34,845 nucleotides of DNA from an uncultured Pseudomonadota bacterium (GCA_903959175.1 CAJBVW010000313.1:1-34845), one strand, 5' to 3'; counted from the first letter of the stretch, positions 6,336 through 33,681 are shown. Notes: generated by a model not told the origin, from the letters alone. A program made the numbers and translations.

Positions 6336-8276
6336 CTACTCCGTCTCCAACCGTACGAACGCGCTCTCCGCGTCGAAGGGCCGGCATGCCCGAGTAACGA
6401 CGATCTGGCGCGCGGTCGCACAGATGGGAAGCCAAGCAGAGCCCGTGGCGACGGGTGCCGCGGAGCTGCACGGGTCTGCGAGGGTGAGCTGCGCCGCGTC
6501 CGGTGCGCCCTCCCCTGAGAGCACGATCCGTACGCGCTCCTCGGGGTGGATCAGCCGGCTCACGGCCTCGTCGTCGCACTGGAGCGCGAACCCGCGCTCC
6601 CGGACCCAGGTGAGGGCCTGGGTGCCGGTCGCGAACGAGAGGGATCCGGGTGCATCGCGGAATTCCGCCATGCTCGGCCAGCGCCGGGCTCCGTCCGTCG
6701 CGATGCGGATGGCACGGGCGGGGTCTCCCCCCTCCGCCGCTGAGAGCGCGGCGTGCCAGGCGAGGAAGGGGTGCGAAGGGTGCCGCCGGAGCACCTCGTC
6801 CCAGCGCGCGGCCCGTTCGGACGCCGTCGGACGGGCGGTGGTCGTCGCGTACCACCGGATGGAGCCTCCGCCGTACCGCAGGTCCTTCCGCAGGGAGTAC
6901 CCCGCGAGGAGCCACGTCGGGTACTCGGGGTGGGTCGTGCCGTCCCAGTTGGCCAGGCGAAGCAGCTCGGGTCGGGTCGTCGCGTCGGAGACCGTGGCGC
7001 GAAGCCACTCCTCGGCGCGCCCCGCGGCGATGGCTTCCGCGGCCGGACGGTGGTTGAGGCCCCTCATGTCGATCAGCGCGAACCCGGGGATGTCGCCCAG
7101 GATCCCGGCATCGACGACGAGCCCGCGGGCGCCGATGGGCGCGTTGTCGATGATCCAGCTCACGTCCTCGGCGATGGGCGTGTCCAGCCCGTGCCGGAGG
7201 TGCGTGTAGGAGCGCGCCACGGCGGACAGCGAGCGGCGCTCGAGGTCGACGGCGCCGTACCCCCGAGGCTCGAGGAAGAACGCCAGTCCGACGGCGAGGC
7301 CGGCCGCGGCGGCGAGCGCCGGGCGGGGCGTGAGGGTCCGCCACGCCGCCAACGAGGCGAACGCCACCGCGGAGGCGAGCACCCCCGGCAGGGTCAGCCG
7401 GCCCCAGCTCATCCAATCCCCGCTCGCGCGGACGAGGGTCGCGCCTTGGATCAGGAGCGGCACGCAGATCCAGAACGCATCACGACGGCTCGTGCGCCCC
7501 GCGAGGACGAGCGTGCCGAGGATCGCCCCCGCGGAGAGGAGGTCCCCGCCGAGCTGCAGGGCGCCGTACTTCGTCAGCCCGATGGGCGACACCTTGACCA
7601 GATACGAGGCGGGTAGAATCGCGTCGAACCAACGGACCCGCGCGACGTGGTAGGCGGCGAGCACCGCCACGGCCCCGACGGCGAGGGCTCGTGTGCCGCG
7701 CCGCTCCGTGGGGCGAAGCACCAGGGTGGAGAGCCCGGCCGCGAGGTGGAGGATGCCCTCGGGGCGGGTGACCGAGGCCGCCGCGAGTACCAGGATCCCG
7801 GCCCCCCACCGCGACGAGGGGCCGAGCACGAGCGTCCATCCCGCGCAGAGGAGCAAGCCGTAGAAGGTCGTCTCGAGGCCGATGACGGACCAGTGGGCGA
7901 GGGGCGCCCAGGTGACGAGGGCCACGAGCGCCAACGCGCCGGTGATGCCGGGGGGGAGGCGGCGCTCGAACACAGCAATCGCGAGGCACGCCGAGCCGAA
8001 GGCCACGAGCTGGGCCAGTACGTCGATGTCGAGGTGAAGGCGCGCGCCGAGCGCCATGAGCGCCATGAAGAGGAAGTTGGAGTACCCCTCCACCCGCTCG
8101 CCCGTCGTCCACTCCAGCGCCCCGCTCTCCGCCCAGTGACGCGCGTAGGTGAGCGTGATGTAGACGTCGTCCACCGTGCCGGGCCAGCTCGGCATGCACA
8201 GCAGCGCGAAGAGCGCGATTGCCGCTGGGAGCCGTGCGCAGCTCGGGGTGGTTTCGCTGGTTCTCTCGTGGCGCAC
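6336..8276 (-). CDS. GT-C integral-membrane glycosyltransferase (AftB-like)
   Basis: A 646-aa protein with roughly ten hydrophobic segments in residues 15-340 and a soluble C-terminal domain. The first periplasmic loop has the GT-C signature GTVDDVYITLTYARHW (D36, D37) followed by GERVEGYSNFLF, as in mycobacterial arabinofuranosyltransferase AftB and relatives. Further family marks are HWSVIGLETT (about 129-136), TRPEG (170-174) and RASGDWMSWGRLTLPG (283-298), matching the GGDFM-GR-LLP region. It would move a sugar from a polyprenyl-phosphate donor to an envelope acceptor. The start is GTG 8276 with no clear ribosome site. It converges on the lipoprotein gene at 4357, and a paralogue in the same setting lies at 19022. 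Sugar and acceptor are unknown. Confidence 0.82.
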   Translation of the reverse strand: MRHERTSETTPSCARLPAAIALFALLCMPSWPGTVDDVYITLTYARHWAESGALEWTTGERVEGYSNFLFMALMALGARLHLDIDVLAQLVAFGSACLAIAVFERRLPPGITGALALVALVTWAPLAHWSVIGLETTFYGLLLCAGWTLVLGPSSRWGAGILVLAAASVTRPEGILHLAAGLSTLVLRPTERRGTRALAVGAVAVLAAYHVARVRWFDAILPASYLVKVSPIGLTKYGALQLGGDLLSAGAILGTLVLAGRTSRRDAFWICVPLLIQGATLVRASGDWMSWGRLTLPGVLASAVAFASLAAWRTLTPRPALAAAAGLAVGLAFFLEPRGYGAVDLERRSLSAVARSYTHLRHGLDTPIAEDVSWIIDNAPIGARGLVVDAGILGDIPGFALIDMRGLNHRPAAEAIAAGRAEEWLRATVSDATTRPELLRLANWDGTTHPEYPTWLLAGYSLRKDLRYGGGSIRWYATTTARPTASERAARWDEVLRRHPSHPFLAWHAALSAAEGGDPARAIRIATDGARRWPSMAEFRDAPGSLSFATGTQALTWVRERGFALQCDDEAVSRLIHPEERVRIVLSGEGAPDAAQLTLADPCSSAAPVATGSAWLPICATARQIVVTRACRPFDAESAFVRLETE

Positions 8277-8284
8277 GCGGCGGC

Positions 8285-8383
8285 CTAACGCGCCGAGCTA
8301 CCGTCGAACCGTCGCCTCTCCAACGCGACCCCCAGCCGGTCGAGCACCGCCGGCCACCCGTTCCGCATCCCCCAGCGCGTCAC
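8285..8383 (-). CDS. possible 32-aa ORF between helicase and GT-C genes
   Basis: A GTG codon overlapping the stop of the large helicase gene (GTGA) opens a 32-codon frame, MTRWGMRNGWPAVLDRLG and onward, that ends 8 nt before the GT-C start. The overlap is the form used for translational coupling and would link helicase and glycosyltransferase in one transcript. No family is recognised, and the ORF could be chance in GC-rich DNA. Confidence 0.25.
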   Translation of the reverse strand: MTRWGMRNGWPAVLDRLGVALERRRFDGSSAR

Positions 8384-11300
8384 CGCGTCGGCAACAACCC
8401 CCACCCCTTCCGCCACAACGCCACCGCCCACGGCGTGTCGATCCACCGCGTCGACCCCTTCGGGGTGCCGTCCAGGTAGCGCACGCGGTTGACCCGATCC
8501 GCGTCGAGGACGCCGCCGTGGGTGGCGACGTCGTCCGCGGCCGCGGCGACCCACGCGAGGTCGGTGAGGGAGACGGTGCGCTCGGCGAAGCCGCCGTCGC
8601 CGCCGTGGAGGCGCACGCCGCCGCGCGGGGCCGCGCCGAGGAGGTGGCCGCGGGTGGCGCCGGAGTCGACCCAGCGGTCGGCGTCGGGGAGGCGAAGGAG
8701 GGCGTTGACGACGGCCTGGGCGGCGCCGAGGGCCCCCTCGGGGAGAACGCGAGAGGCGGTGCGGCCGCCGTCGAGGGCGCGCCAGGTGGCGAAGCTGACC
8801 TCGGGGATCTGCCAGCGGCCGATGTCGTCGCGCCACCGGCCGACGCCGAGGTAGCGCAGCTCGTCGTCGACACGGACGACGACGTAGGCGGTCTCGGCGG
8901 GGCGGCGGTCGGGCACGACGAGGTCGACCTGGTCGGGGGCGTCAAGCACGCCGGTGCTCCCGACGTAGAGCACGAGGTGCCCGCCGTAGCGGCCGGTCGC
9001 GGGCGGGGTCGGGTCGCCGCCGAGGTGGGTGACGAAGGTGTCGAAGGAGACGACGGAGCCGACGGCGGGGGCGAGGTCCTCGGGGCGCACGACGGAGTCG
9101 AGGCGGGCGACGACGAGCATGTCGTCGGTCGCGTCGAAGGTGGGGCCCTCGGGGTTGTCGGAGGCGAGGACCCACGCGCCGCCGTCGCGGCGGATCCGCT
9201 TGAGCACGTAGCCCTGACCGGCCGCGCCCGGGAGCTCGACGAGGGCGACGCGGCCCTCGACGTGGTCCGCCGATGCGCCGCGGTCGAGGCGGAGGATCAC
9301 CCAGTCGCCGTCGTGGATGGGGGAGGGGCCGCCGTCCATCGAGGTGCCCGCGGCGCGCACGGCGAAGCGGCGCGGGTCGGGGCCGGGCACGGGGAGCGCG
9401 ACGGAGGAAGCCTCGGGGCCCTCGCGCTCCGCGGCGGCGTGGCCGGCGGCGGCGCGGAGGTCGGGGTAGGCGACGACGCGGTGGAGGGGGGGGAGCTCGA
9501 TGACGGCGGCGGTGGCGTCGAGGGGGGCGACCCACAGGCCGTCGGGCGCGGCGACGAAGCGGACCTGGAACACGCGCCCGGGCGCCCCGGCGTCGGCGCC
9601 GAACCAGCCGCGGAGCAGCTCGGGGAGCTGGTTGGACGGCTCGCCGATGGGGCGGGCGACGTTGCAGAACTCCTTGGCGAAGCGGAACTGCCACACGGCG
9701 CCGTCGGGGAGGCGCACGTCGGTCTCGCCCTGGGGGACCGTGGCACGTTGGCCGCGGGGGAGCGCCAGGATCGGGTCACGTTGGTTCCAGGTGACACGGC
9801 AGACGAAGCCCTCGCCGGTGGGCGGGCGGCGGCGGCGGTACTGGAGGAGGCGCAGCTCGACGAGCTCGCGCACGAGGGCCGCGAAGGGCTCCCGGAGGCC
9901 CTCGCCGATGCCGAGGTCCAAGGCGAAGCGGTCGCCGTCGAGGCGGAACCACGCGCGGCCGCGGGTCGCGGTGGTCCACGCAGCGATCGGGTTGCGACGC
10001 CAGTACCCGAGCCACTTCTTGCCGATCGTGTCCCCGTCGGGGCGCTCGTCGGCGGGGACGTCGTCGAGGAGCTCGGGGGAGCGCCGGAGGAGGGCCCACG
10101 CGCGCGTCGCGATCCGGTCGAGCGGGGCGCCGGCGAAGAGGACGTCGTCGTCGAGGAGCACCTGGAGGGTGACCATCTTGAACGACCGGGTCATCGGGGT
10201 GACTTCGAGGTCGCGGAGGAACGCGGCGCCGATCTCCCAGGCGGTGCGCGCGGGCGCGGGGAGGTCCCCCTCGGACGCGACGAAGTCGAACCAGCCGCGG
10301 TGCCCCCGGCGCAACGGGTCGAGCGAGTACCCCATGCGGAGGAGCTCGCCGGCCTGGGGCCGCTCGTCGCGCGCGGTGCGGAGCTCGCGGTAGGCGCGCT
10401 CGACGCCCAGGGCGCCGGTGCCGAGGATCAGGGCTTCGAGGAGCTTCTTGGCTTCGAGCTCCACGTCCACGAAGCAGCCGGCGGGGAGCGCGATCGGCCC
10501 CTTGGCCTTGAAGAAGGCGTCGAGGGTCTCCGTGCGGCCCGCCGCCGCCCCCATCGACAGGAGCGTGTGCATGCGGTCGACGAACATGCGGTGGTTGCCG
10601 ACGAAGTCGATGACGGTCAGGTCCTCCTTGCCGGGCGCCGCGCGCAGGCCGCGACCCAACTGTTGGAGGAACACCACGCCGCTCTCGGTGGGCCGGAGCA
10701 TGACGACGCGGTCGATCTCGGGGACGTCGACGCCCTCGTTGAACACGTCGACGGCGCAGACGGCGTCGAGCTCGCCGGAGGCGAGTTGGGTGAGGGCGCG
10801 GTCGCGGTCGTCCGAGTCGGACTCGGAGTAGACCGCCGCGGTGCGCACCCGCTTCGCCAGGAGCCACCGCTTGACGTAGCGGGCGTGGACGACGCTGCAG
10901 CAGAACACGAGGGTCCGCGCGCGGGGCAGGCGCGTCCACTCCTTCCACATGCTGGACATGCGCGCCTCGGTGGCGGCGGCGGCGGCGAGGGAGTCGAGGT
11001 CGAAGCGGGCGTTGCGCCAGGGGATGTTGGTGTAGTCGATCTCGTCGCGGACGCCGAAGTAGCGGAAGGGGACGAGCCGCTTCACGGCGATGCCGCGGTC
11101 GATGCCGGCGCGGTAGGCGACGAAGTCGTCGAAGAGGCCGAGGACGTTGGCGCTGTCGGCGCGGTCGGGGGTGGCGGTCAGGCCGAGCAGGAACACCGGG
11201 TCGAGCGCCGCGAGGATGTGTCGGTAGGACGCGGCGGCGGCGTGGTGGACCTCGTCCACGACGACGTAGTCGAAGCGCTGGGCCGCGAGCCGCGCGCGGT

Positions 11301-12660
11301 GCTCGGGGCGGGAGAGCTTGGCGACGGAGGCGAACACGAGGTCCGCGTCGAGGTCGGCCTCCGCTTCGAGGAACCAACCGACGCGCGCGGCGGGGTCGCG
11401 GTCGTGGAGGACGCGGCGCCACGCGGCCACCGCCTGCCGGAGGATCTCACGGCGGTGGACCACGAACAAGAGCCGCGGGCGCCGACCCAGCTCTTCCCAG
11501 AGTTGGACGTAGTCGAGGACCGCGAGCCACGTCTTGCCGAGGCCGGTGGCGAGGACGACGAGGGCGCGGCGGCGCCCGGCGGCGCGGGCCTCGCGGAGGG
11601 CGGCGAGCGCGGCCACCTGGACCTCGTGGGGCGCGTCCGGCGCGGCGACGGGATCTTCCTGGGCTTCTTCAGGGGGCAAGGCGCGGGCGGAGACGCGGGC
11701 GCGCGTGGCGTAGTCGGCGATCCAGGCGGCGTCCAGCGGGCGGGCGGCCCGCCAGAGCGCCTCGAAGCCGCTCCCCACCTGCTCCCAGGCGGCGGCGTCG
11801 CGGTCGCGGTCGACGCGCAGGTTCCACTCGATGCCGGTGTCGAGCGCGGAGAAAGACAGGTTGCTGCTGCCGACGTAGGCGACCCCGAGCCCCGGGCCCT
11901 CGAAGCGCCACGCCTTGGGGTGGAACGCCCGCGTGCGGCCGGGGAGCTGCTCCACCTCGATGACACGGGCCTCGAGGGTGCCGAACGGCGGCGCGTCCGG
12001 CGCGGGGGCGGGCGCGGTGACCTGCCAATCGAGCAACATCTCGAGCGCGCCGACCTGGGTGATCGCGAGGTAGTCACCCGTGAGGATGCGGACGTGCCCG
12101 CCGCGCACCAGCGCAGCATCGAGCGCGCGGCGGACGCGGTCGAGGCCGCTCACCTGCACGAACGCGGCCACGACGTCGATGGTGGTGGCGCGGGTCAGCA
12201 GCGGGAACAGGTGCCGGGAGAAGGGGTCGTCCTCGGTGCCCGTCGTGAGCGGGGCGGCCTTCGCGAGGTAGTTGCCCTTGCTCGGGATGACGTGGCGCAC
12301 GCCGCCGCGGGGGTCGTCCATGTCGCCGCGGTAGCGGGGGATCACGTGCACGTGGAGGTGCATGACCGTCTGGCCGGCGGCCTCCCCGGCGTTGAAGCCG
12401 ACGTTGTAGCCGTCCGGCCGGTGGGTGCGGTCGAGGTCGGCCTTCACGGCGTCGACCAGGGCGAAGAGCGCCGTGCGCTCCTCCGCGGAGGCGTCGAACC
12501 ACGTCGGGACCACGCGGCGCGGGATCACGAGGGTGTGGCCCTCGGTGACCGCGTAGCCGTCACGGATCGCGAACGCGAGCGCGTTCGAGGCGACCCACGC
12601 GGCCTCGGGGATCGCCAGGAAGGGGCTATCAGGATCGTCGCGAGTGCCGCTGGTGCTCAC
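8380..12660 (-). CDS. HIT-PLD-SF2 helicase-DUF3427-S24 fusion protein
   Basis: A 1426-aa protein starting at GTG 12660; upstream in-frame sequence would run into the divergent gene. Residues 10-115 are a HIT domain with the HLHVH triad (H101, H103, H105), a nucleotide hydrolase or transferase. Residues about 150-320 are a phospholipase-D-type nuclease (FHPK H247/K249, then GSSN 264-267). Residues about 345-690 are an SF2 helicase: ATGLGKT (K376), VVDEVHH (DEVH 469-472), LTATPDR (495-499) and QQLGRGLR. Residues about 720-1060 fit DUF3427. Residues 1085-1160 are LexA/S24-like, with AGTSMDG (Ser1107) and YVLKRI (Lys1154) as the dyad. The last 230 residues are unassigned. PLD-helicase-DUF3427 proteins are known and often sit near defence genes; the HIT and S24 additions are notable. 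The role is probably DNA processing in defence or repair. Confidence 0.88.
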   Translation of the reverse strand: MSTSGTRDDPDSPFLAIPEAAWVASNALAFAIRDGYAVTEGHTLVIPRRVVPTWFDASAEERTALFALVDAVKADLDRTHRPDGYNVGFNAGEAAGQTVMHLHVHVIPRYRGDMDDPRGGVRHVIPSKGNYLAKAAPLTTGTEDDPFSRHLFPLLTRATTIDVVAAFVQVSGLDRVRRALDAALVRGGHVRILTGDYLAITQVGALEMLLDWQVTAPAPAPDAPPFGTLEARVIEVEQLPGRTRAFHPKAWRFEGPGLGVAYVGSSNLSFSALDTGIEWNLRVDRDRDAAAWEQVGSGFEALWRAARPLDAAWIADYATRARVSARALPPEEAQEDPVAAPDAPHEVQVAALAALREARAAGRRRALVVLATGLGKTWLAVLDYVQLWEELGRRPRLLFVVHRREILRQAVAAWRRVLHDRDPAARVGWFLEAEADLDADLVFASVAKLSRPEHRARLAAQRFDYVVVDEVHHAAAASYRHILAALDPVFLLGLTATPDRADSANVLGLFDDFVAYRAGIDRGIAVKRLVPFRYFGVRDEIDYTNIPWRNARFDLDSLAAAAATEARMSSMWKEWTRLPRARTLVFCCSVVHARYVKRWLLAKRVRTAAVYSESDSDDRDRALTQLASGELDAVCAVDVFNEGVDVPEIDRVVMLRPTESGVVFLQQLGRGLRAAPGKEDLTVIDFVGNHRMFVDRMHTLLSMGAAAGRTETLDAFFKAKGPIALPAGCFVDVELEAKKLLEALILGTGALGVERAYRELRTARDERPQAGELLRMGYSLDPLRRGHRGWFDFVASEGDLPAPARTAWEIGAAFLRDLEVTPMTRSFKMVTLQVLLDDDVLFAGAPLDRIATRAWALLRRSPELLDDVPADERPDGDTIGKKWLGYWRRNPIAAWTTATRGRAWFRLDGDRFALDLGIGEGLREPFAALVRELVELRLLQYRRRRPPTGEGFVCRVTWNQRDPILALPRGQRATVPQGETDVRLPDGAVWQFRFAKEFCNVARPIGEPSNQLPELLRGWFGADAGAPGRVFQVRFVAAPDGLWVAPLDATAAVIELPPLHRVVAYPDLRAAAGHAAAEREGPEASSVALPVPGPDPRRFAVRAAGTSMDGGPSPIHDGDWVILRLDRGASADHVEGRVALVELPGAAGQGYVLKRIRRDGGAWVLASDNPEGPTFDATDDMLVVARLDSVVRPEDLAPAVGSVVSFDTFVTHLGGDPTPPATGRYGGHLVLYVGSTGVLDAPDQVDLVVPDRRPAETAYVVVRVDDELRYLGVGRWRDDIGRWQIPEVSFATWRALDGGRTASRVLPEGALGAAQAVVNALLRLPDADRWVDSGATRGHLLGAAPRGGVRLHGGDGGFAERTVSLTDLAWVAAAADDVATHGGVLDADRVNRVRYLDGTPKGSTRWIDTPWAVALWRKGWGLLPTR

Positions 12661-12665
12661 ACCCC

Positions 12666-12671
12666 CGTATA
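12666..12671 (-). promoter_or_regulatory. -10-like TATACG before the fusion-helicase gene
   Basis: On the minus strand TATACG lies 5 nt before GTG 12660, so transcription would begin at or next to the start codon (leaderless mRNA). There is no Shine-Dalgarno sequence. It sits in the 118-nt divergent space shared with the lipoprotein gene at 12779. Confidence 0.4.
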
Positions 12672-12778
12672 CCACGTCTCCCGCCCCTCCCACCCCGCCT
12701 CCGCACCGGCCGCGCGCCGCGCGCGGTCCGTGTGCCCCCTTGCTCGATCCGGATGGCCGAGGAGACGGCCGCGGGCTT

Positions 12779-14782
12779 ATGGCGGTCGCGCCCGGAGCTC
12801 TCGTGCACCTCCTTCGCCTCGTTCCCTGCCTCCTGCTGCTGGCTGCCTGCGCCGGGAAGGGCCCCGCCGACGACGACGGATCGGGCGACTCCACCCCCGA
12901 GGGCGAGGACGCCGACGGCGACGGGTTCCGGACCCCCGACGACTGCGACGACGCCGATCCCGCCGTGCACGAAGGGGCCGCCGAGGTGTGCGACGCTGCC
13001 GACGACGACGAGAACTGCAACGGCGTTGCGGACGATGCCGACCCCACCGTGTCGGACGCGTTGCGTTGGTACGCGGACGCCGACGGGGACGGCTACGGCC
13101 CTACCGATGCGCGCCCCGGCTACGCGTGCGACCTGCCGGCGGGCGCGGCCGACAACGCGGACGACTGCGACGACGCCGACCCCGCCTTGTCTCCCGGTGC
13201 GCCGGAGCTGTGCGACGCCGCCGGCGTGGACGAGGACTGCGACGGCCTCGTGAACGACGCCGATCCGGACCTGTCGACCGAGGGGCTCGCCACCTTCTAC
13301 CTGGACGAGGACCGCGACGACTACGGCGACGACGCGGCGCCGCTCGCCGCGTGTGTGACACCCCCCGGCTACGCGGACGTGGCGGGGGACTGCGATGACA
13401 CCGACCGGGAGATCAACCCGAGCGCGGCCGAGATCTGCGACAACGGCATCGACGAGGACTGTTTGCCGGGCGTTGGGTGCGGGGTGCACGGGACGACCGA
13501 CCTGTCGACGCGCGCCCGCGCCGCGAAGATCGCCGGGGAACAGGCGGGGGACGGCCTCGTGACCGTACGGGCGGCGCGCGACATCGACGGCGACGGGTAC
13601 GACGATCTGCTCGTCGGCAGCGCGGTCGCGGCGGGGGCCACGGGCGGGAGCGGCGAGGCCTACCTGCTGTACGGTCCGATCGCGGGCGGCGTGTCCGTCG
13701 AGGACGCGGACGTGCGCCTGCCGGGCGGCGCGTCGGGGGACGGGCTCGTGCCCCTGATGGCCGGCGTGGACGCGGACGGCGACCGGACCCCCGATCTGCT
13801 CGTCGGGGCGCCGGGCTACGGCACGGACAGCGGCCGGGTGTACCTCGTGGCGGGCGCGTTCTCGGCCACGGAGGAGCTCGGCGGCGCGCTGACCGACTGG
13901 GTGGGGACCGACGCGTCGGACGCCCTCGGGCGCCTGGGCGGCTACGGCGACTTCGACGGCGACCGGGCCGAGGACCTCGTCCTCTGCGGCGCCGACACCG
14001 TCTACGTCCTCGACGGCCCCGCCACCCAGCGCGGCTCCCAGCCGATCGACCATGCCGACGCGACGTTCACGCTCACCTCCGTCGGCAGCCTCGAGGTGTT
14101 CGACGTCAACGGCGACGGCATGGACGACCTGCTCGTGGGGGACCCGGCCGACTCGGGCGGCGGCGCGGCGGCGGGCGCGGCGCGGCTCGCGTACGGGCCG
14201 TTCTCGGGGACGGCCGCCTTCTCTCGGGTGGCAGACGTGGTGTTCGAGGGCACCGTGGCGGGCCAGGGCGTCGGCAGCGCGGTCGCGGCGGGGGACCTCG
14301 ACGGCGACGGCTACAAGGACGTGGCGCTCGGCGCGTCGATGGACGGATCCGCGGCGTCCGAGGCCGGCGCGGTGTACCTCTCGTTCGGCCGCTTCGAGGC
14401 GGAGGTGGACCTCGCGGCCGCCGAGGTGGTGCTCACGGGCGAGAGCCTGGGCGACCACGCCGGGGCGTCGCTCGCGCTCGGGGACTTCGACGGGGACGGC
14501 GTGCTCGACCTCATCGTGGGCGCGAGCGGTGACGACGACGGCGGCGCCGACGCGGGGGCCGCGTACGTGCTCTACGGGCCGGTCGACACCAGCGGGAGCC
14601 TGTTGGGCGCGGACGCGAAGCTGGTGGGAGAGGACGCCGACGACGCCGCGGGTGAGGCGGTGGGTGTCGCCGGGGACATTGACGGGGACGGCATCGAAGA
14701 CCTCTTCGTGTCCGCACCCGGTGACGACGAGGGCGGGAGCGGCGCGGGGGCGATCTACCTGTTCGCGGGGGGCGCGGAGTAG
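12779..14782 (+). CDS. MopE-motif / seven-blade FG-GAP lipoprotein
   Basis: A 667-aa lipoprotein. ATG 12779 begins a normal leader with the lipobox LLLLAAC. Residues about 30-240 hold three MopE-type units, each a D-x-D-x-D-x-F/Y calcium-type loop, a DDCDD knot and an ENCNG/EDCDG close with paired cysteines. Residues about 245-667 give seven FG-GAP repeats with calcium loops (DIDGDGYDD, DADGDRTPD, DFDGDRAED, DVNGDGMDD, DLDGDGYKD, DFDGDGVLD, DIDGDGIED), which matches a complete seven-bladed integrin-like propeller. It lies divergent from the fusion helicase and 19 nt before the radical SAM gene, so it is probably co-transcribed with the latter. It is more distant from the 4357 and 17439 proteins than those are from each other. 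The metal actually bound is not shown. Confidence 0.88.
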   Translation: MAVAPGALVHLLRLVPCLLLLAACAGKGPADDDGSGDSTPEGEDADGDGFRTPDDCDDADPAVHEGAAEVCDAADDDENCNGVADDADPTVSDALRWYADADGDGYGPTDARPGYACDLPAGAADNADDCDDADPALSPGAPELCDAAGVDEDCDGLVNDADPDLSTEGLATFYLDEDRDDYGDDAAPLAACVTPPGYADVAGDCDDTDREINPSAAEICDNGIDEDCLPGVGCGVHGTTDLSTRARAAKIAGEQAGDGLVTVRAARDIDGDGYDDLLVGSAVAAGATGGSGEAYLLYGPIAGGVSVEDADVRLPGGASGDGLVPLMAGVDADGDRTPDLLVGAPGYGTDSGRVYLVAGAFSATEELGGALTDWVGTDASDALGRLGGYGDFDGDRAEDLVLCGADTVYVLDGPATQRGSQPIDHADATFTLTSVGSLEVFDVNGDGMDDLLVGDPADSGGGAAAGAARLAYGPFSGTAAFSRVADVVFEGTVAGQGVGSAVAAGDLDGDGYKDVALGASMDGSAASEAGAVYLSFGRFEAEVDLAAAEVVLTGESLGDHAGASLALGDFDGDGVLDLIVGASGDDDGGADAGAAYVLYGPVDTSGSLLGADAKLVGEDADDAAGEAVGVAGDIDGDGIEDLFVSAPGDDEGGSGAGAIYLFAGGAE

Positions 14783-24867: not shown

Positions 24868-27222
24868 ATGGACAGCGAGCTCCGGCTCCGAAGGGATACG
24901 CTGGAGGATTGGCAACGCCTCGCTGTCGATGCCTGGGACCACGCAAATCCGCCTGGGCTCGGTCGTCGCCACGGCATCCTCAGTGTGTACACCGGCGGCG
25001 GAAAGACCCTGCTCGCCGCGGCCTGCATCGCCAAGGCTGCGGCGGACACACCCGACCTCCGCGTCGCCGTGGTCGTCCCCAAGATCGCGCTTGCCAAGCA
25101 ATGGCAGGCTGACCTGGCGGCGGCGTTGAACGTGGATCGAGCCGCTATCGGGATCGCGGGGGGTGGAGGCGACGGGAGCCTGATGCGCTCCCGGATTGTG
25201 GTGTTCGTCATCGACACCGCGCGGGCGGAGTTGAAGCGCCAGTCTGCAGATGTGCGTTCTCTGATGCTCGTCGTAGACGAGTGCCACCGATCGGGATCGG
25301 CCAAGAACCGGGAGATCTACGCCGCGCGCAGCGCGTTCCGCCTGGGGCTCTCTGCCACGCCGGAGCGCGGGGACGACGTGGATGACAACGGCGTGCCACT
25401 CCCAATCGAGCAGCAGGCGCACGGACGTGCCCTCGGGCCCGTCTGCTTCCAGCTCGACCTGAAGGACGCCCGGCTTCGCGGCCTTCTGCCGCCGTACCGC
25501 ATCGTCCACCATGGGATCGCGCTCGACAAAGCCGAGCGTGGAACCTACGAAACCCTGTGCGAGCGCGTTCGGCGCGCCGAGAACGCCCTGCTGGCGGCCG
25601 GCGGCGACCCGGGCCGCTACCTCGCGTATCTGCGGCCCGGCGCCAGGCACTCCGCGGCGGTCCGTCGAGCCGCCGCCGACCTCCAGACCACCTACGTCGG
25701 CCGCAAGCAGTTCCTCTACGGTGCGACCGAGCGGAACCGGGTCGGCCGAGAGATCGTGGGTGCTCAGGTACGGGGCTCGAAGGGGAAGATCCGGGCGCTG
25801 CTCTTCAACGAACGGATCCGGGATAGCGACGGTGAGGACGAGGAATCCTCTCCACGCGACGCCGGCGCCGAGGCCCTCTACCGCGGCCTCATCGAGGACT
25901 GCCGCCGAGGCGCCCTCTCCCTCGAAGAGCGTCAGGTCGCGTTGGAGCACTCAGAGCTCGCCGCGGACGCCCGCGATGCCGCGCTCGAAGGGTTCCGCGA
26001 CGGTAGCGTCCGGGTGCTCGTGTCGGTCAAGGCGTTGGTCGAGGGGATCAATGTGCCCGAGACCGACCTCGGGATCTCGGTAGCCTCAACCGCCAGCGCG
26101 CGTCAGCGCATCCAGACGCTCGGGCGCGTGCTCCGCTCCGCGCGCGACGCCCAGGGTCGGCGCTTGCCCGCCGAGCTGCAGCCGGTCAAGGAGATGCACC
26201 TCGTCTACGTCCGCGATTCGGTGGACGCGAACATCTACGCCAATCACGATTGGACGGATCTCACCGGGGACGCAGAGAACGTATGGAAGGAGTGGGATCT
26301 CGGAGCGCTCGCGCCACACGACGGGGCCGCGCTGAAGCCGTCGTTGTTCTCGGAGGAGACGGCGTGGGCGGACATCAAGGAGCTCGCCCTGCCGCAGCGG
26401 TGGAACGGGCCTGTCCCGCGTACCGTCTGGTCACACCGTGCGGGCGGGGTGTTCCGGCAGGACGAAGCGCCGGCCGTCGACCCGCTTCCGGCAGTCGCCC
26501 TCCTCGAGCGGGGTGCCCCGCCCCTCGGGGCGGATGCGCGTGGGCGCTTCAAGGTGACGCCCCAGCTCGGCGTGGTGTTGAAGTTGGCGCAGCCAACCGC
26601 GGCCCGTGCGGGCGGATGGTACGCGCTCGGCCAACTCCCAGCGCCTCTGCGTGCGCAGGACGGTGAATTCGCGACGGGGGAGCCGGCCCCGCTGCCGCCT
26701 CCGGCCGCGACGGTGGACGCGGCGCCCCTGGTGATCCGACCCGGCGTCGCGCCCGCGGGAGGAGACGCTCGCGCTCCGGGGACCGCGCCACCGGCTCGGC
26801 AAACGGACGCCGATCTCGAGCTCGCGCGCGAGGTCGAGCAGGTGACCGGGCTTCGGTGGTCCGCGGTGTTGCAGCACGCCTGCCTCGCGTGCGTGGACCA
26901 GGACATGCGTTGGGTGACCGCGGCGCGCGACCTCCTCCAGACCCGCCGGCGGGGACAGGAGGCGCTGCCCGCGCTCAACGCGCTGCTCGGGGTGGGCATC
27001 GAGGGGGTCACGGTGCGGGTCGAGCGCCTCGACCTCGAGTGGCCGGAGCTCCTCGTCTACGCCTGCGCGTGTTGGCACAACGGGCGCCTCGACGAGGTGC
27101 GGCGTGTCCGCGAGGAGTTCCAGCGGCGGCGAAAGCGTGTTGGAGCGCGGAATCAAGCGCTCGCCCACGCGCTGGGCATCCTGCTGAACGAGGTGCGTGA
27201 CGTCTGGTCGGACGCCGGCTAG
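24868..27222 (+). CDS. SF2 DEAD/DEAH-type helicase with unassigned C-terminus
   Basis: A 784-aa protein. ATG 24868 is preferred because the helicase Q-like start (LRRDTLEDWQRLAVDAW) follows closely; ATG 24832 would add 12 residues, and neither has a strong ribosome site. Helicase motifs are TGGGKT (K46), VVPKIALAKQW (about 69-79), VVDECHR (DECH 137-140), LSATPER (161-167) and, near residue 395-430, LVEGINVPETD with QRIQTLGRVLR. The C-terminal 330 residues have no domain I can name; they include a Pro/Ala-rich linker (about 620-650) and a helical end (FQRRRKRVGARNQALAHALG). Such stand-alone XPB/ResIII-like helicases are common in defence islands. It is flanked by a gene remnant and a recombinase, so it is probably acquired. 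Confidence 0.8.
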   Translation: MDSELRLRRDTLEDWQRLAVDAWDHANPPGLGRRHGILSVYTGGGKTLLAAACIAKAAADTPDLRVAVVVPKIALAKQWQADLAAALNVDRAAIGIAGGGGDGSLMRSRIVVFVIDTARAELKRQSADVRSLMLVVDECHRSGSAKNREIYAARSAFRLGLSATPERGDDVDDNGVPLPIEQQAHGRALGPVCFQLDLKDARLRGLLPPYRIVHHGIALDKAERGTYETLCERVRRAENALLAAGGDPGRYLAYLRPGARHSAAVRRAAADLQTTYVGRKQFLYGATERNRVGREIVGAQVRGSKGKIRALLFNERIRDSDGEDEESSPRDAGAEALYRGLIEDCRRGALSLEERQVALEHSELAADARDAALEGFRDGSVRVLVSVKALVEGINVPETDLGISVASTASARQRIQTLGRVLRSARDAQGRRLPAELQPVKEMHLVYVRDSVDANIYANHDWTDLTGDAENVWKEWDLGALAPHDGAALKPSLFSEETAWADIKELALPQRWNGPVPRTVWSHRAGGVFRQDEAPAVDPLPAVALLERGAPPLGADARGRFKVTPQLGVVLKLAQPTAARAGGWYALGQLPAPLRAQDGEFATGEPAPLPPPAATVDAAPLVIRPGVAPAGGDARAPGTAPPARQTDADLELAREVEQVTGLRWSAVLQHACLACVDQDMRWVTAARDLLQTRRRGQEALPALNALLGVGIEGVTVRVERLDLEWPELLVYACACWHNGRLDEVRRVREEFQRRRKRVGARNQALAHALGILLNEVRDVWSDAG

Positions 27223-27320
27223 TCGGGGTGGCACCCGACGGGGTGTGTCCACGCCGCTCGCGGCCTTTCGCATCGTGTGACACGGCCCCGCGCGAGGGGG
27301 CGTCACCCGAAGGGCGGAGA

Positions 27321-27390
27321 CCCGCGCCGCGCGGGGCTCCGTCGGGCGGCCGCCGCCCGATAGCACCCGGCCGGCCCCGGGCCGGCGCGC
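27321..27390. repeat. three consecutive GC-rich palindromes
   Basis: Within 70 nt lie CCCGCG-CCG-CGCGGG (27321-27335), TCGGGCGG-CCG-CCGCCCGA (27342-27360, perfect 8-bp stem) and a CCGGCCC/GGGCCGG palindrome around 27370-27385. They occupy the space between the helicase stop and the convergent recombinase gene. They may form a bidirectional terminator block or a recombination-related structure. Apart from these, 27223-27485 shows no gene. Confidence 0.5.
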
Positions 27391-27485
27391 CCAGCCTGCC
27401 GATCGGGTTGGGCGCGTCGGGATCCGCCTGGATCAGCGCGGGCGGCTCCGTGGCCTTCTCGGATGTTCTTGCCGAATCCATCGAA

Positions 27486-27531
27486 GCCAAAAATGAGAAA
27501 GGCGTCGCTATCGACGAATCGAGCGACGCCT
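27486..27531 (-). terminator. intrinsic terminator of the serine recombinase gene
   Basis: On the minus strand a 10-bp stem (AGGCGTCGCT paired with AGCGACGCCT, 12-nt loop) is followed by TTT, four bases and a run of five T. The stem overlaps the stop codon at 27508-27510, so the last codons of the recombinase lie in the terminator. Confidence 0.75.
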
Positions 27532-29202
27532 ATCAGGTATGGCTCCTCCAAGCGTCCCCGCCTGAGAGTATTCGGCCCCCTCCACGTCCATAGTGACGTT
27601 CGCAGCTTGCATTTCATCAACGAGCAGCTTCAGGCCCTCGTTGTCGAACGGCACCTTGTAGGAGATGTGCAGGCTGGAGCGGTTCACCACCCGGATTGAC
27701 GCGATGAACCGGGTCACGATGCGCCGGCGGATGCCGAGGGGGAAGGTGTCCCAGCCCGCCTGGAAGGTAGCCCGGAAGCGCGCGAGCTGGTCGAGGTTCG
27801 TGCCGATGGCGCGGTCGTAGTAGTCCTGCTGGCGGACGATGCGCGCCTCCGCCTCGAGCGCCGCCTTCATGGTGTTGGCCTCGGTGATCTGGGCCTGCAT
27901 CGCCACGGGGTCGACGCCGAGCCCGATGGCGCGGACGTAGTTCTGGATGCGCCGGTCGATCTCCCCGATCTTGGCGTCGACGGCCTTGGGGCTCTGCCCG
28001 TAGGTCCGGCGCCGCGCCTCCACCTTCTCCAGGATGCGCCGCTCGATGTCCGCCCACGCCTTGTCGTTCACGAGGCGGTTCTTGACCACGTCCACGACGA
28101 TGCCCTCGATCCAGTCCTTGTGGAGCGGGAGCGACGGGCAGACCTCAGCGCCCTTCGTCTGGTAGCTGCTGCAGTAGTAGGCGTACCAGGGGTGGCGCTC
28201 GCCGGTCTTGCGGTCGAGGCGAAGCTGTTTCTTCCCCGAGAAGTTGGCGCCGCAATGCTCGCACTTGATGAGGCGGGCGAGCAGGTAGTCGACGTGGTGG
28301 TCGGCGCGCTTGGTACAGTCGAACGTGCGGCCCTGGGCGAGGGTGGCGCGGCGCTCGAAGAGGTCGCGCTCGATGATGGCGGGGTGGGCGTTCGTCGCGA
28401 CGATGTGCTGCACCGGGTCGGTGCGCTCGCGGCCGGTACGCCCGGCGCGCTTGGACTTGAACCAGACCTGGTCGCCCACGTAGACGCGGTTCATGAGCAT
28501 CGTCGAGATGGTGGAGCTGTTCCAGTTGGGGGAGCGGGGCCCGGAGATCTTCTGGCGGTTCAGTTCGCGGGCGATGGCCTTGTTCCCGAGGCCGTGGTTC
28601 ACGGAGAGGTCGAAGATGTGGCGGATCACCCGCAGCTCCTCCACGGGGCCGAGCATGAGCTTGCCGTGCGTCCCGCCGCGCCCGTCCTCGACGTGCTCGA
28701 CGTGCTCGACCCGGTAGCCGTAGGGCACGCGCCCGCCGTTGAAGTTGGCCCGCTCGGCGTTCTCGCGCATCCCCTTGAGGGTCTCGGTCGCGAGGTTCAT
28801 CGAGTAGAACTGGTTGATGACCTCGATCATGCCCTCGTAGAGGAAGCCCTGCGGGGTGTCGGGGTCGTAGGTCTCGGTGATGCTCTTCACGAGGACGCCG
28901 TGCTTGCGGAGCAGGCTCTTGAAGAGGATGGACTCCTCGCGGTCGCGAGAGAAGCGGTCGAGCTTGTGGACGACGATCGCCTTCACGTCGGCCTTCTTGC
29001 AGTAGGCGATCATCTCGCAGAAGCCGGGCCGCTTGTTCGCGTGGGCGTAGGCGGACTCTCCCTCGTCCACGAACTCGCGCAGGAGGCGGTGGTCGGGCCG
29101 CTCCTCGACCCAGCGGGTGAGCAGCTTGCCCTGGGCGGGGATGGAGATGTCCTTGAGGGCCTGCTCGTCGGAGGAGACGCGGCAGTAGGTGACGACGTTC
29201 AT
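27508..29202 (-). CDS. large serine recombinase (site-specific integrase)
   Basis: A 564-aa enzyme starting at ATG 29202 with GGAG 8 nt upstream. The resolvase-type catalytic domain (1-150) begins MNVVTYCRVSSDEQ with Ser10 as the expected nucleophile, and has KLDRFSRD (about 80-87). The recombinase domain (about 155-285) includes RVPYGYRV and the LMNRVYVG segment. The zinc ribbon has C314, C317, C344 and C355. A long charged helix (about 380-480, KVEARRRTYGQSPKAVDAKI) is the coiled-coil that controls integration direction in this family. It breaks and joins DNA at short att sites and needs no other transposase. Length and motifs are complete, so it is probably active. Its att sites were not identified. 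Confidence 0.92.
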   Translation of the reverse strand: MNVVTYCRVSSDEQALKDISIPAQGKLLTRWVEERPDHRLLREFVDEGESAYAHANKRPGFCEMIAYCKKADVKAIVVHKLDRFSRDREESILFKSLLRKHGVLVKSITETYDPDTPQGFLYEGMIEVINQFYSMNLATETLKGMRENAERANFNGGRVPYGYRVEHVEHVEDGRGGTHGKLMLGPVEELRVIRHIFDLSVNHGLGNKAIARELNRQKISGPRSPNWNSSTISTMLMNRVYVGDQVWFKSKRAGRTGRERTDPVQHIVATNAHPAIIERDLFERRATLAQGRTFDCTKRADHHVDYLLARLIKCEHCGANFSGKKQLRLDRKTGERHPWYAYYCSSYQTKGAEVCPSLPLHKDWIEGIVVDVVKNRLVNDKAWADIERRILEKVEARRRTYGQSPKAVDAKIGEIDRRIQNYVRAIGLGVDPVAMQAQITEANTMKAALEAEARIVRQQDYYDRAIGTNLDQLARFRATFQAGWDTFPLGIRRRIVTRFIASIRVVNRSSLHISYKVPFDNEGLKLLVDEMQAANVTMDVEGAEYSQAGTLGGAIPDRRRSIRR

Positions 29203-29256
29203 GAGAGCTCTCCGAGGGGGGAAACGTTCGGGCTGGGCCCCGGCCGCGACCCTGAT

Positions 29257-29272
29257 TGCAAAAGGGATGCCA
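29257..29272 (-). promoter_or_regulatory. sigma-54-type promoter of the recombinase gene
   Basis: On the minus strand TGGCAT-CCCTT-TTGCA matches the -24/-12 consensus TGGCAC-N5-TTGCA with one difference and correct spacing. It lies about 55 nt before ATG 29202. A TTGACA at 29284-29289 has no matching -10, so the sigma-54 reading is better. It implies activator-dependent expression. Confidence 0.5.
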
Positions 29273-29538
29273 GCGACCCCGGCTGTCAAGGCCTGGATCG
29301 CAGGTCGTCCGAAACACCAGGAAAGGCGAGTTTTCGATGCCCTTGGTGGTCGGTTTTGGCCGCCGGATCGACGTTCTGGCAACGCGCCACCCACCCAAAT
29401 CAACGCGCCGCCGCTGCCTCATCGGGGGACGGGGGCGCCGCGCACGGGGGGCGCTGCGCGCCATTCAAAGGCTCTTGCGTCGCGTTCAGGGAGACGAGCG
29501 GGTCGACATGCCGCTGGAGCGCGCCACGGGCCCTCAAC

Positions 29539-29552
29539 GAACGTGCACGTTC
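29539..29552. promoter_or_regulatory. perfect 14-bp palindrome upstream of the Fic gene
   Basis: GAACGTGCACGTTC is a perfect palindrome, centred 85 nt before the Fic start and 14 nt from the second dyad. It could be an operator, but a 14-bp palindrome alone is modest evidence. Confidence 0.4.
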
Positions 29553-29565
29553 CTCGGCCCTCGCG

Positions 29566-29587
29566 CTAATAACGACTGCGTTATTAG
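29566..29587. promoter_or_regulatory. 22-bp dyad, probable operator of the Fic gene
   Basis: CTAATAACG and CGTTATTAG form a perfect 9-bp inverted repeat with a 4-nt spacer, AT-rich in a GC-rich setting, 43 nt before the Fic GTG. The site overlaps the likely promoter. The Fic protein has its own C-terminal winged-helix domain, so autoregulation through this site is likely. Confidence 0.65.
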
Positions 29588-29630
29588 TGGCCGACCCGGA
29601 GAACGCCGTCGTTCCCAGGCAAGGAGCCCC

Positions 29631-30815
29631 GTGCCTCGAGCGACTGGAGACTACGACACCACCATCGCCGGCGGCGAGACGGTGCGCGCGTTCGTACCCT
29701 TCCCACTCCCGCCGCGGGACCCGCCCCTTGAGATCGTGGGGCCGCTGCATGAGCGCCTCCGGGTCGCAGAGCAGGCGTTGGTCCGTCTGGAGCTCGCCGG
29801 CGCGATGGTGCCGTCGATGGACTGGTTCATCTACGCCTTCGTCCGCAAGGAGGCCGTCATCTCCTCGCAGATCGAGGGGACGCAGGCCACGCTTGTAGAT
29901 CTCCTGAACTTCGAGGCCACGGAGGGGGACGCGGCGCCTGCGCCGGCGAGCGCCGACGTAGAGGAAGTGTGCAACTACGTCGACGCGCTGCACTTCGCGC
30001 GTTCGCAGCTGGCTGATCCACAGGGACCGCCGCTGTCGATGCGGTTGCTCAACGCCACCCACGCACGGCTCATGCGCGGGGTGCGTGGCGCGTCGAAGCT
30101 GCCGGGAGAGGTGCGACGCAGCCAGAACTGGATCGGCGGGTCGCGGCCGGGCAACGCTGCGTTCGTGCCGGCACCTCCCCACCGGCTCGGCGAGGCGCTC
30201 TCCGAGCTGGAGCGGTACGTCCACGCCGACGACGAGGGGCTGCACCCGCTCGTGCGCGCGGGGCTGCTGCACGTCCAGTTCGAGACGATCCACCCCTACC
30301 TCGACGGCAACGGGCGCATCGGGCGCCTCCTGGTGAGCCTGCTCCTGGAGCACTGGGGGCTGCTCACCCAGCCGCTCCTCTACCTGTCGCTCTTCTTCAA
30401 GCGGCACCGGGCCGAGTACTACCGGAGGCTGAACGCGGTGCGCGTGGACGGCGACTGGGAGGGCTGGCTCGACTTCTTCCTCGACGGCGTCGGCACGATC
30501 GCCGAGGAGGCGGTCGCCGCAGCGAAGGAGCTGTTCACGCTCGTGGTCAGCGACCGCACCCGGCTGCTCGCGCACGTGGACACGACGGTGGTGACCGTCC
30601 GCCTCTTCGAGCTCCTCCCTCGCAACCCGATGCTCACGACGGCGAGCGTCATGCGGCTGCTCGGAGTGGCCCGCCCGACGGCGGCGCGCTCGCTGGACGC
30701 GCTGGTGGAGGCGGGCATCCTCGTCGAGACAACCGGCAAGCGCCGGGACCGCACGTTCGCCTACGACGCCTACCTGCGCCGCCTGCGCGAGGGGACGGAG
30801 CTCGAGGGGCGGTGA
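29631..30815 (+). CDS. Fic family protein with C-terminal winged helix
   Basis: A 394-aa protein. GTG 29631 is set by the strong AAGGAG ribosome site 4 nt upstream. Residues about 10-100 are the N-terminal Fic-associated domain, with SSQIEGT (78-84) fitting the inhibitory (S/T)xxxE(G/N) helix: S78, E82, G83. The Fic core has HPYLDGNGRIGR (221-232), the complete catalytic motif for transfer of AMP (or another nucleotide monophosphate) to Ser, Thr or Tyr of a target protein. Residues about 315-380 (MLTTASVMRLLGVARPTAAR) are a winged helix-turn-helix, and a 22-bp dyad precedes the gene. Both catalytic and inhibitory motifs are intact, so this is a self-restrained AMPylase. Fic genes of this form are common in mobile regions; the target is unknown. 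Confidence 0.9.
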   Translation: MPRATGDYDTTIAGGETVRAFVPFPLPPRDPPLEIVGPLHERLRVAEQALVRLELAGAMVPSMDWFIYAFVRKEAVISSQIEGTQATLVDLLNFEATEGDAAPAPASADVEEVCNYVDALHFARSQLADPQGPPLSMRLLNATHARLMRGVRGASKLPGEVRRSQNWIGGSRPGNAAFVPAPPHRLGEALSELERYVHADDEGLHPLVRAGLLHVQFETIHPYLDGNGRIGRLLVSLLLEHWGLLTQPLLYLSLFFKRHRAEYYRRLNAVRVDGDWEGWLDFFLDGVGTIAEEAVAAAKELFTLVVSDRTRLLAHVDTTVVTVRLFELLPRNPMLTTASVMRLLGVARPTAARSLDALVEAGILVETTGKRRDRTFAYDAYLRRLREGTELEGR

Positions 30816-30848
30816 ACGCCGGGTCTGCTGTGGGGGCCTGGGGCTCCG

Positions 30849-31745
30849 CTACGCTCGGAGGACCTCGATGAGGACCGCCATGGGGTTGTGCCACGCCACC
30901 GCCGAGTCCACTCGCAGCGTGAGTCCGAGGCGTCGACAGACGCGGAACATCTCCTCGAGGCGCTCCAGGGTCAGGTCGTAGGGCTGGGTCACGTAGATGT
31001 GAGCTTTGCCCTCCTTCATCCACATGGAACTGTGGTCGGCTCCCGGCAGGTGCACGCAGGGGCCGGCGTGCCGCTCGGCGCCGGCCTCGTCGGTGAGGCG
31101 CCGGAGGCAGGCGTGGCCGCTCGGATCCTGCTTCACACCCTCCCGCGTGGCCCACGCGCTCTTGGCTGCGGCATCGCGGCGCTCGTCCGGTTGCGGGGCA
31201 AACCGCGCGTCCCAGGCTCGCATCCCGTCGATCGCGCGGTCGTAGTCGGACCCCGGCGCCCGCGCCCACTTCGCCGAGGGCTTTCGGAGCCAGGCGCCGT
31301 CGAGGTCGATGCCCTCGTCGGCCGCGACGAAGAGGCCCTCGGCCAGGTACGCGGCGAGCACCTGTGCCTTGTCTGCCACGATGTCGACGGTCATCTCGTG
31401 GGTGTCGCGGTGCAGCTCGGCGGCGAGCTCGCGGATGCCGCCGTCGCTCCGACCCGCGTACATCAGCACTTCGACCTTCCGCAGATCGCCGGGCGCGAGG
31501 TCCGTCAGGTAGGTGCGGAGCGCCTGGTCGGCCGACGGGCTGCCGTCGGCTGCAGCGTTCGCGAGCTGGATGACCGCCTCGACGACGGCGCGAAGCCCGG
31601 CAGATGGTTCAGCGTCGGCTGGCTGCTGGTCCCGAGCCGGGTCAAGGCGCCCTCGGACGACGTGCAGCCTCGCGGTCGAGTACGACTCGCCGGTCGCCTT
31701 CTGCCGAGCGCGAATGAGCTTCTTCTGCTTGGTGTTGTCGGACAT
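30849..31745 (-). CDS. hypothetical accessory-region protein, 298 aa
   Basis: ATG 31745 has a good ribosome site (GTGGAGG, 8 nt). The N-terminus MSDNTKQKKLIRARQKATGE with SYSTARLHVV is a motif seen in unknown proteins of plasmids and integrative elements, perhaps a short DNA-binding helix pair. The middle (about 70-140: YLTDLAPGDLRKVEVLMYAGR, DIVADKAQVLAAYLAEGL) loosely resembles DUF3775-type helices. The C-terminal third (GKAHIYVTQPYDLTLERL, LGLTLRVDSAVAWHNPMAVL) has an alternating strand-helix pattern. No catalytic motif is evident. It converges on the Fic gene with 33 nt between stops. Function is unknown. Confidence 0.75.
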   Translation of the reverse strand: MSDNTKQKKLIRARQKATGESYSTARLHVVRGRLDPARDQQPADAEPSAGLRAVVEAVIQLANAAADGSPSADQALRTYLTDLAPGDLRKVEVLMYAGRSDGGIRELAAELHRDTHEMTVDIVADKAQVLAAYLAEGLFVAADEGIDLDGAWLRKPSAKWARAPGSDYDRAIDGMRAWDARFAPQPDERRDAAAKSAWATREGVKQDPSGHACLRRLTDEAGAERHAGPCVHLPGADHSSMWMKEGKAHIYVTQPYDLTLERLEEMFRVCRRLGLTLRVDSAVAWHNPMAVLIEVLRA

Positions 31746-31977
31746 GGGTAGAACCTCCACGCGACTGCCCGGGGTCCGCCCTCTCCGAAAAGCCGCAGGT
31801 TGGTTCCACCGATGCTGGCCTCGGACTGGGTCCGGTTTGCCCCGGGATGGACTCGGGCGGGAGTCCGCTGGGGTTCGGCGTTGGCCACGCCGTGCGTGAA
31901 GAGTACCCGGCCTTCTCGGGGCGCGCCAGCTCGGGGGCGGGCATTCCCACGCCTGTTCCTGCCGCCTCCGCACGTTC

Positions 31978-32628: not shown

Positions 32629-33183
32629 AGAACGTCCGCGCCGACCTCGCGGACGCCACCGTGATGGAGTTCATCCGGGAGGCCGCCCGCGACCCGAAGA
32701 TGCTCGCCGCGGCAGTCGAGGAGGCCAACCGCATCGCGCAGCAGACCGTGGCCCCGCTCCGCGAGGGTGTCACGTCCATGAAGCGGGACCTCGCAGCCGC
32801 CGACCGCACCGCGGAGGCCACCCTCGACACGCTCCTCATGGTCGGCTTGTCCGACAGCCCGACCGCGAAGCGGCGGCTCGCGGAGGCCGAGGAGAAGGTG
32901 AGACAGGTGCGGCTCGCGCTCGCCGAGGCCGAGGGCGAGCTGGCCGTCCGCGAAGGGGAGCAGCTGGACGCCGAGGTGATGGCCCAGGCCCTCGGCTCCT
33001 TCGACGAAGCCTTCGACCACCTGACTTCGGACGAGCGGCGGGAGTTCCAGCGGCTGATGATCAAGCAGGTCGAGGTCTATAAAGACCGCATCGTGGTCGA
33101 TCTCTACGAGGGCCGGCAGGCGACGGGCTACCTCGTGGCCGTCACCACCGGCGCGCAGACCGATGAAGAAGCCGCAAAAGCAA

Positions 33184-33212: not shown

Positions 33213-33217
33213 GTGAC

Positions 33218-33660: not shown

Positions 33661-33681
33661 GCATAGAGATACGCTCGCGCG

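Follow-up and report, generated by a model that had tools for sequence, protein, structure and literature searches.

SauUSI is a dimeric enzyme that joins a PLD nuclease to an SF2 translocase and also contains a helical coupler and a reader of 5-methylcytosine with the SRA fold. Activation of its ATPase requires recognition by the target recognition domain (TRD), and its apo structure is considered an inactive state (PMC7913695). How such modification-dependent restriction enzymes are controlled with respect to host DNA is poorly understood. In restriction alleviation, ClpXP turns off another nuclease with an SF2 motor, EcoKI, by destroying HsdR, in which a degron was sought and not found (PMC4231737). 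Proteins of the LexA family are cut at an Ala-Gly bond in LexA and a Cys-Gly bond in UmuD (PMC8565304), and ClpX(P) degrons embedded right beside the cut site are exposed by cleavage (PMC5742171, PMC10584840). Here we describe a gene in a 34,845-nt stretch of DNA from an uncultured bacterium (GCA_903959175.1 CAJBVW010000313.1:1-34845; hereafter the window) that is predicted to encode a SauUSI-type nuclease carrying an S24 domain of the LexA type between two candidate DNA readers. The enzyme probably splits itself when the DNA of the cell is broken, most likely turning itself off.

Results

A predicted SauUSI-type nuclease with additional modules

The gene runs on the minus strand, from 12660 down to 8380; the original prediction had named no strand. 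The domain order is HIT-PLD-SF2-coupler-B3-S24-SRA-extension, with the B3-like part tentative and the SRA-like part assigned by fold comparison, as follows.

8380..12660, minus strand: whole gene, 1426 residues, GTG start, 156 kDa (reading frame, Pfam, coding score, full-length homologues)
12313..12597, minus strand: HIT domain, residues 22-116, triad H101-x-H103-x-H105 (Pfam PF01230, 3e-21)
11671..12261, minus strand: PLD-family nuclease domain, residues 134-330, H247xK249x4E254 and GSSN 264-267 (PLDc_2 3.2e-5, below cut-off; PADLOC mREase_IV; invariant residues in the alignment)
10561..11649, minus strand: SF2 helicase-like motor, residues 338-700, Walker A 372-377 and DEVH 469-472 (Pfam ResIII and Helicase_C; PDB 7clg, 1.2e-68)
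9826..10560, minus strand: alpha-helical coupler, residues 701-945 (AlphaFold2 helices from residue 748 on; same position as the SauUSI coupler, PMC7913695)
9511..9822, minus strand: tentative B3-like DNA-binding domain, residues 947-1050 (structural match to the R.NgoAVII B3 domain)
9103..9498, minus strand: S24 (LexA/UmuD/CI) self-cleaving domain, residues 1055-1186 (Pfam PF00717, 1.2e-6; lambda CI fragment, Z 13.5)
9442..9447, minus strand: predicted scissile bond Ala1072-Gly1073, LRAAA/GH, cut between A and G (G in 31/31 homologues, A or C before it in 30/31)
9340..9342, minus strand: predicted nucleophile Ser1107 (30/31 homologues)
9199..9201, minus strand: predicted general base Lys1154 (28/30 in the column)
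8767..9093, minus strand: predicted SRA-like modified-base reader, residues 1190-1298 (AlphaFold2 pLDDT 93; SauUSI SRA, Z 9.5)
8383..8763, minus strand: C-terminal alpha/beta extension, residues 1300-1426 (AlphaFold2 model; fold without a consistent structural match)

The window has a GC content of 72%, and long shadow frames are common there. A plus-strand open reading frame (ORF) at 8176..13398 was considered and rejected as such a frame, as its translation had no domain motifs and its coding score was poorer. A codon-usage gene caller trained on the collected contigs gave the minus-strand frame 12660..8380 the best coding score of the whole window, and the strand was settled because protein homology supports this frame.

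The original prediction had described a fusion of HIT, PLD nuclease, SF2 helicase and S24 domains, and all of these were recovered in one 1426-residue chain by Pfam, PADLOC and structure comparison. The motifs HLHVH (101-105), FHPK (246-249), GSSN (264-267), (T)GLGKT (372-377) and DEVH (469-472) were all present in the translation, as was TSMDG with Ser1107 and the downstream Lys1154. The domain search found both HIT (3e-21) and Peptidase_S24 (1.2e-6) above the Pfam cut-off, together with ResIII (1.9e-31) and Helicase_C (1.3e-12), and PLDc_2 fell slightly short of it (24.2 bits against a cut-off of 27).

The closest solved structure was SauUSI (1.2e-68 over residues 242-692), and the best match in the defence library was the type IV restriction family mREase_IV of PADLOC (3e-88 over residues 132-744). 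The sequence H247-P-K249-A-W-R-F-E254 is exactly the PLD motif H(X)K(X)4E of SauUSI. With an N-terminal PLD domain bearing this motif, a helical coupler behind its SF2 motor and, by structure only, a C-terminal TRD of the SRA fold, the protein is predicted to be an ATP-dependent, type IV-like restriction nuclease of the SauUSI type. Four parts go beyond the SauUSI plan: a HIT domain at the N-terminus, an extra candidate reader with an S24 domain behind it, both inserted between coupler and SRA, and a tail extension of ~125 residues.

The S24 domain retains the residues for self-cleavage

The model of the S24 domain matched the lambda CI fragment that contains the cleavage site (PDB ID: 2hnf) with a Z of 13.5 over 120 residues at 3.1 Å. 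Structures of LexA, of UmuD and of RecA-bound LexA, CI and UmuD matched at Z 10-13, and the RecA complexes 8gmu, 8gms and 8gmt were among the matches. Conservation was assessed in a set of 31 S24 domains, which came from Pseudoalteromonas and about a dozen families within Myxococcota; 30 of them reach the position of the lysine. Gly1073 was present in all 31, preceded by alanine in 24 and by cysteine in six, and the spacing from the site to the serine was LexA-like (32-40 residues). The median conservation of a column in this set was 48%. Homologous loci are referred to by number: the lysine is shifted by one position in L039, and the only domain without it, in L034, has lost the site, the serine, the lysine and the HIT domain together. 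The recovery of the S24 fold and the conservation of these residues bear out the proposed LexA/UmuD-like domain, and self-cleavage at Ala1072-Gly1073 is well supported as a prediction from sequence.

The predicted cut would leave a 118-kDa HIT-PLD-motor-B3 fragment and a 37-kDa S24-SRA fragment. All Ala-type sites (24/24) would leave an N-terminal fragment ending in -AA, and that of the window protein would end in -AAA. RecA and LexA are both encoded in the genome.

A role for the S24 fold alone is not expected because the scissile bond is kept. It is quite unlikely that the domain cleaves rarely or not at all and instead serves for dimerisation or for docking on RecA filaments, bringing the nuclease to broken DNA, even with the points in its favour that S24 domains dimerise in LexA and CI and bind RecA filaments, as in the three complexes above.

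Two candidate readers flank the S24 domain

The original prediction had stated that the last 230 residues match nothing known. This holds for the sequence, as no relatives of the last ~240 residues were found in Pfam or PDB profile searches, and fails for the fold of the first ~110 of them. The AlphaFold2 model of the tail was confident (pLDDT 93), and the top structural match of its first ~110 residues was the SRA/TRD domain of SauUSI (residues 803-953; Z 9.5, 2.5 Å, 101 residues), followed by ~30 rows of matches that were nearly all SRA domains. Foldseek also placed an SRA domain on top, weakly (E 0.28), and the hhalign profile alignment to SRA domains of the DUF3427 type was weak as well (P 0.02). 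In L033 the same HIT-PLD-SF2-coupler-B3-S24 chain is followed, at the identical place, by a terminal domain that can be recognised as SRA/DUF3427-type, which supports the view that the window tail is a swapped reader. The model thus points to an SRA-like DNA reader in the first ~110 of the last 230 residues, and an effector of unknown type was rejected for this half of the tail. For the extension behind it (residues 1300-1426), neither a sequence match nor a consistent structural match was found.

The DUF3427 domain of the original prediction did not hold up, as Pfam detected PF11907 neither in the protein nor elsewhere in the genome. The region to which it had been assigned consists of the coupler and the B3-like domain, and the SRA-like fold, which corresponds to the TRD part of DUF3427, lies C-terminal of S24 instead.

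A second DNA reader, tentatively B3-like in the model, would precede the S24 domain. Model residues 201-303 (residues ~948-1050 of the protein) matched the B3 domain of R.NgoAVII over 98 residues at 3.0 Å with a Z of 7.6, which is under 8 and comes without a sequence match to B3 in a profile comparison. About ten further B3 domains, including plant ones, matched the same region at Z 5.6-7.3. Pfam, the PDB profile search and hhalign gave no support by sequence for SRA or B3, so both assignments come from the comparison of folds.

A modular family in Myxococcota

Distribution was surveyed in 379 sampled Myxococcota genomes, together with viral contigs and plasmids; other phyla were barely sampled. 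The full order was found in one ORF in 11 Myxococcota genes (the window, L016, L029, L030, L031, L032, L076, L077, L078, L079 and L083, with a degenerate HIT domain in L032), and further members were interrupted by contig ends or frameshifts. An assembly chimera was ruled out by these 11 ORFs and by full-length homologues in independent genomes. A profile of the coupler-B3-S24 part matched 35 of the 379 genomes, and in 26 the match extended into S24, which puts the S24 part in at least 26 genomes. The B3-like domain occurred in 34 genomes, almost only in this protein family and mostly where the coupler-S24 matches also fell, and the tail type of the window in 8 of the 71 genomes of the host's class. 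No relative of the coupler-S24 part was found on the viral contigs, and the plasmids carried nothing closely related to the coupler-B3-S24 part of the window protein. Because relatives of the protein include one from Minicystis rosea, with the same domain order except for one frame break, the host is identified by sequence as a myxobacterium-like member of Myxococcota.

The variants show that the family is built from modules. The chain is HIT-PLD-SF2-coupler-SRA without S24 in L028, extends from HIT to B3 without S24 in L094, and stops at S24 after HIT...B3 in L087 and L091. A Pseudoalteromonas plasmid gene (L039:3197-6751) has the order PLD-SF2-coupler-S24 with a Cys-Gly site, and lies directly behind a small S-adenosylmethionine-dependent methyltransferase gene. 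In four loci (L016:4717-8559, L035:4722-8231, L083:2942-6553 and L091:5561-9025), a second, shorter SauUSI-type gene (PLD-SF2-SRA, no S24) directly adjoins the S24-type gene in convergent or divergent orientation.

Frame breaks between HIT and PLD were seen in L017:9310-9340 and L027:9690-9720, at a run of G in the same conserved codons (PRGGV). At G7 the run would be in frame; Minicystis rosea has G6 and L027 has G8, each one base off. A programmed frameshift was considered, with assembly error or slipped-strand (phase) variation equally likely. The genome of the window also holds a broken copy of the HIT-PLD-helicase gene, with its pieces in differing frames (L019, contig C79:4297-5409).

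The neighbours of the relatives include McrB-like AAA, PD-(D/E)XK/DUF2357, restriction and SIR2-like genes. The homologues in the regions L030:2653-13341 and L031:5366-13996 are surrounded by DUF2357/PD-(D/E)XK, PDDEXK_7 and AAA_5 (McrB-like) genes, with serine-recombinase-like genes nearby; each region is likely a type IV restriction island. A role as a DNA-repair or housekeeping helicase-nuclease is very unlikely. RadD-type helicases do match, distantly (7e-25), and a LexA-type domain would suit a repair protein; set against this are the patchy distribution (26-35 of 379 genomes), the modular swapping of readers, the best matches to type IV restriction enzymes, and the restriction and SIR2-like neighbours. 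The original prediction of a defence device encoded by one gene, in which self-cleavage is regulated, gains support from the SauUSI structure, the mREase_IV match and the conserved S24 residues, and the survey of homologues, with the same order in 11 genes, showed no housekeeping role.

In the window itself, a second SF2 helicase gene (24868-27222, plus strand, 784 residues) had its best defence-library match to PbeA (1.3e-43). It adjoins a large serine-recombinase-like gene (27508-29202, minus strand), and a weak AbiEi-like ORF lies at 33712-34056. The genes at 24868-34056 are possibly a mobile defence region.

The HIT domain is an optional module

The fused HIT domain was 60-69% identical to several fused and stand-alone HIT proteins. 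Stand-alone proteins with 62-65% identity lie beside, and often overlap, an HNH endonuclease gene in L018, L020, L021 and L023. The two-gene unit, HIT with an HNH endonuclease of ~350 residues, is found repeatedly in genomes ranging from Myxococcota to Betaproteobacteria and Bacteroidota, where it is often plasmid-borne or close to restriction genes (L018:6484-7949, L020:2561-4056, L021:2281-3758, L023:7809-9282, L025:9299-10740; plasmids L038, L102, L103 and L106); no name for it was found. More distant pairs are carried by plasmids of Polaromonas, Aromatoleum, Hymenobacter and Persicobacter. On a Mycolicibacterium plasmid (L107:2028-3535), a TIR-domain gene overlaps a HIT-domain gene, and a helicase and a GIY-YIG nuclease lie to either side. 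A MutT-type hydrolase adjoins a SauUSI homologue in Hymenobacter, and likewise in Streptococcus (PMC7641849). The HIT-HNH and TIR-HIT pairs and the MutT neighbours show that nucleases of this sort repeatedly have nucleotide-hydrolase partners.

L032 has lost the triad but kept the rest of the protein, and L034 lacks the HIT domain but keeps the nuclease-motor core. The HIT domain is thus evolutionarily dispensable, an optional hydrolase module that is common to HNH nuclease operons. The nucleotide signalling proposed in the original prediction found no support apart from the HIT domain itself. A model in which the nuclease is under the control of a nucleotide signal that HIT produces or, more probably, hydrolyses would fit the HNH and TIR neighbours above and the MutT-type hydrolases beside other SauUSI homologues. 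It is nevertheless highly improbable, as neither the gene nor its neighbours contain a recognisable nucleotide-signal synthase, the two losses just described left the core in place, and the S24 domain would have no explanation.

Discussion

We favour a reading in which the protein is a SauUSI-type nuclease with a built-in self-destruct switch, and give the entire chain of steps a probability of roughly 0.45. By analogy with SauUSI, the SRA-like reader, perhaps together with the B3-like reader, would recognise foreign or modified DNA, the coupler would relay this to the SF2 motor and start translocation, and the dimeric PLD nuclease would cut both strands. RecA filaments on single-stranded DNA would arise from breaks that the enzyme makes in host DNA or from other damage, and would stimulate in-cis cleavage of Ala1072-Gly1073 by the S24 domain. 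The 118-kDa nuclease-motor fragment would thereby lose the modified-base reader, which stays on the 37-kDa fragment, and its new -Ala-Ala-Ala terminus, resembling the ClpX degron exposed by cleavage of LexA, would probably lead to its degradation. Restriction alleviation would in this way be hard-wired into the enzyme itself. Quite possibly the enzyme reads RecA directly, so that filaments formed at its own first breaks in the host would bring about the cut between the two readers, end its activity and send the nuclease-motor fragment to ClpXP. The analysis shows the anatomy and the conserved cleavage signature; the cut itself, the RecA trigger, the direction of the switch, the loss of activity after the cut and the modification of the target are steps that we infer.

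Loss of activity is favoured because of the LexA-like -AA(A) end and the precedent of ClpXP with EcoKI. In the opposite case, the intact chain would be autoinhibited and the RecA-triggered cut would free a HIT-PLD-motor-B3 nuclease against phage DNA, or all DNA, in the manner of abortive infection. Effectors activated by proteolysis are common in bacterial defence, the B3-like reader would stay with the nuclease-motor part after the cut, and in homologues that end at S24 only the S24 body would be stripped, like a lid. The inactive apo state of SauUSI would also agree with activation. The dependence of the SauUSI ATPase on TRD recognition (PMC7913695) speaks against it, as do the LexA-like degron end in all Ala-type members and the lack of any toxin-like confinement, such as a partner antitoxin. 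We consider activation unlikely and place it behind loss of activity.

Several points weigh against the self-destruct switch. L027, L087, L091 and L039 end at S24 without an SRA domain, so cleavage cannot always equal removal of a reader, and cleavage at the six Cys-type sites among the 31 would leave an -AC end, which is not a LexA-like degron. The neighbourhood in the window is not a clear defence island. Certain LexA-like proteins are cut without RecA, as described for IrvR (PMC7101444), and plasmid-induced restriction alleviation in E. coli does not need the SOS response (PMC11109961).

The individual parts are all known; no description of either an S24 domain in a restriction enzyme or the whole domain combination was found in the open-licence papers searched. 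If the self-destruct switch is correct, the control element inside the enzyme is the best understood bacterial DNA-damage switch, and it would provide a modification-dependent enzyme with restriction alleviation within a single molecule. LexA-type self-cleavage would then extend from repressors and polymerase subunits to an effector that cuts DNA.

Comparison with known systems

The window protein shares with SauUSI the PLD domain with H(X)K(X)4E, the SF2 translocase, the helical coupler and the C-terminal SRA-fold reader in a single chain. In contrast, SauUSI has no HIT, B3-like or S24 modules and no C-terminal extension, and its reader is recognised as DUF3427, whereas that of the window protein is not. 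The NgoAVII and CglI systems likewise use a PLD nuclease and an SF2 motor, together with a B3-type reader whose counterpart in the window protein is tentative. They do so with separate R (PLD-B3) and H (motor-Z1) subunits in an R2H2 complex, whereas the window protein is one chain in which the B3-like domain lies between the motor part and S24-SRA, and no Z1 domain was matched in it by Pfam. The HIT-HNH units also place a HIT domain, 62-65% identical in several genomes, next to a nuclease, but as two separate genes and with an HNH nuclease that has neither motor nor S24. With LexA, UmuD and lambda CI, the S24 domain has in common the fold, the Ser-Lys dyad, an Ala/Cys-Gly site at equal spacing and the predicted -AA end of the N-terminal fragment; it differs in a Ser-Lys spacing of 47 residues, longer than that of LexA, and in its setting, as it is embedded in a nuclease-motor enzyme and not attached to a repressor or a polymerase subunit. 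Finally, alleviation of EcoKI and the switch proposed here would both spare the host by a protease-based shut-down of a restriction nuclease with an SF2 motor. EcoKI requires an external protease and a degron that has not been identified, whereas the window enzyme would make the first cut itself.
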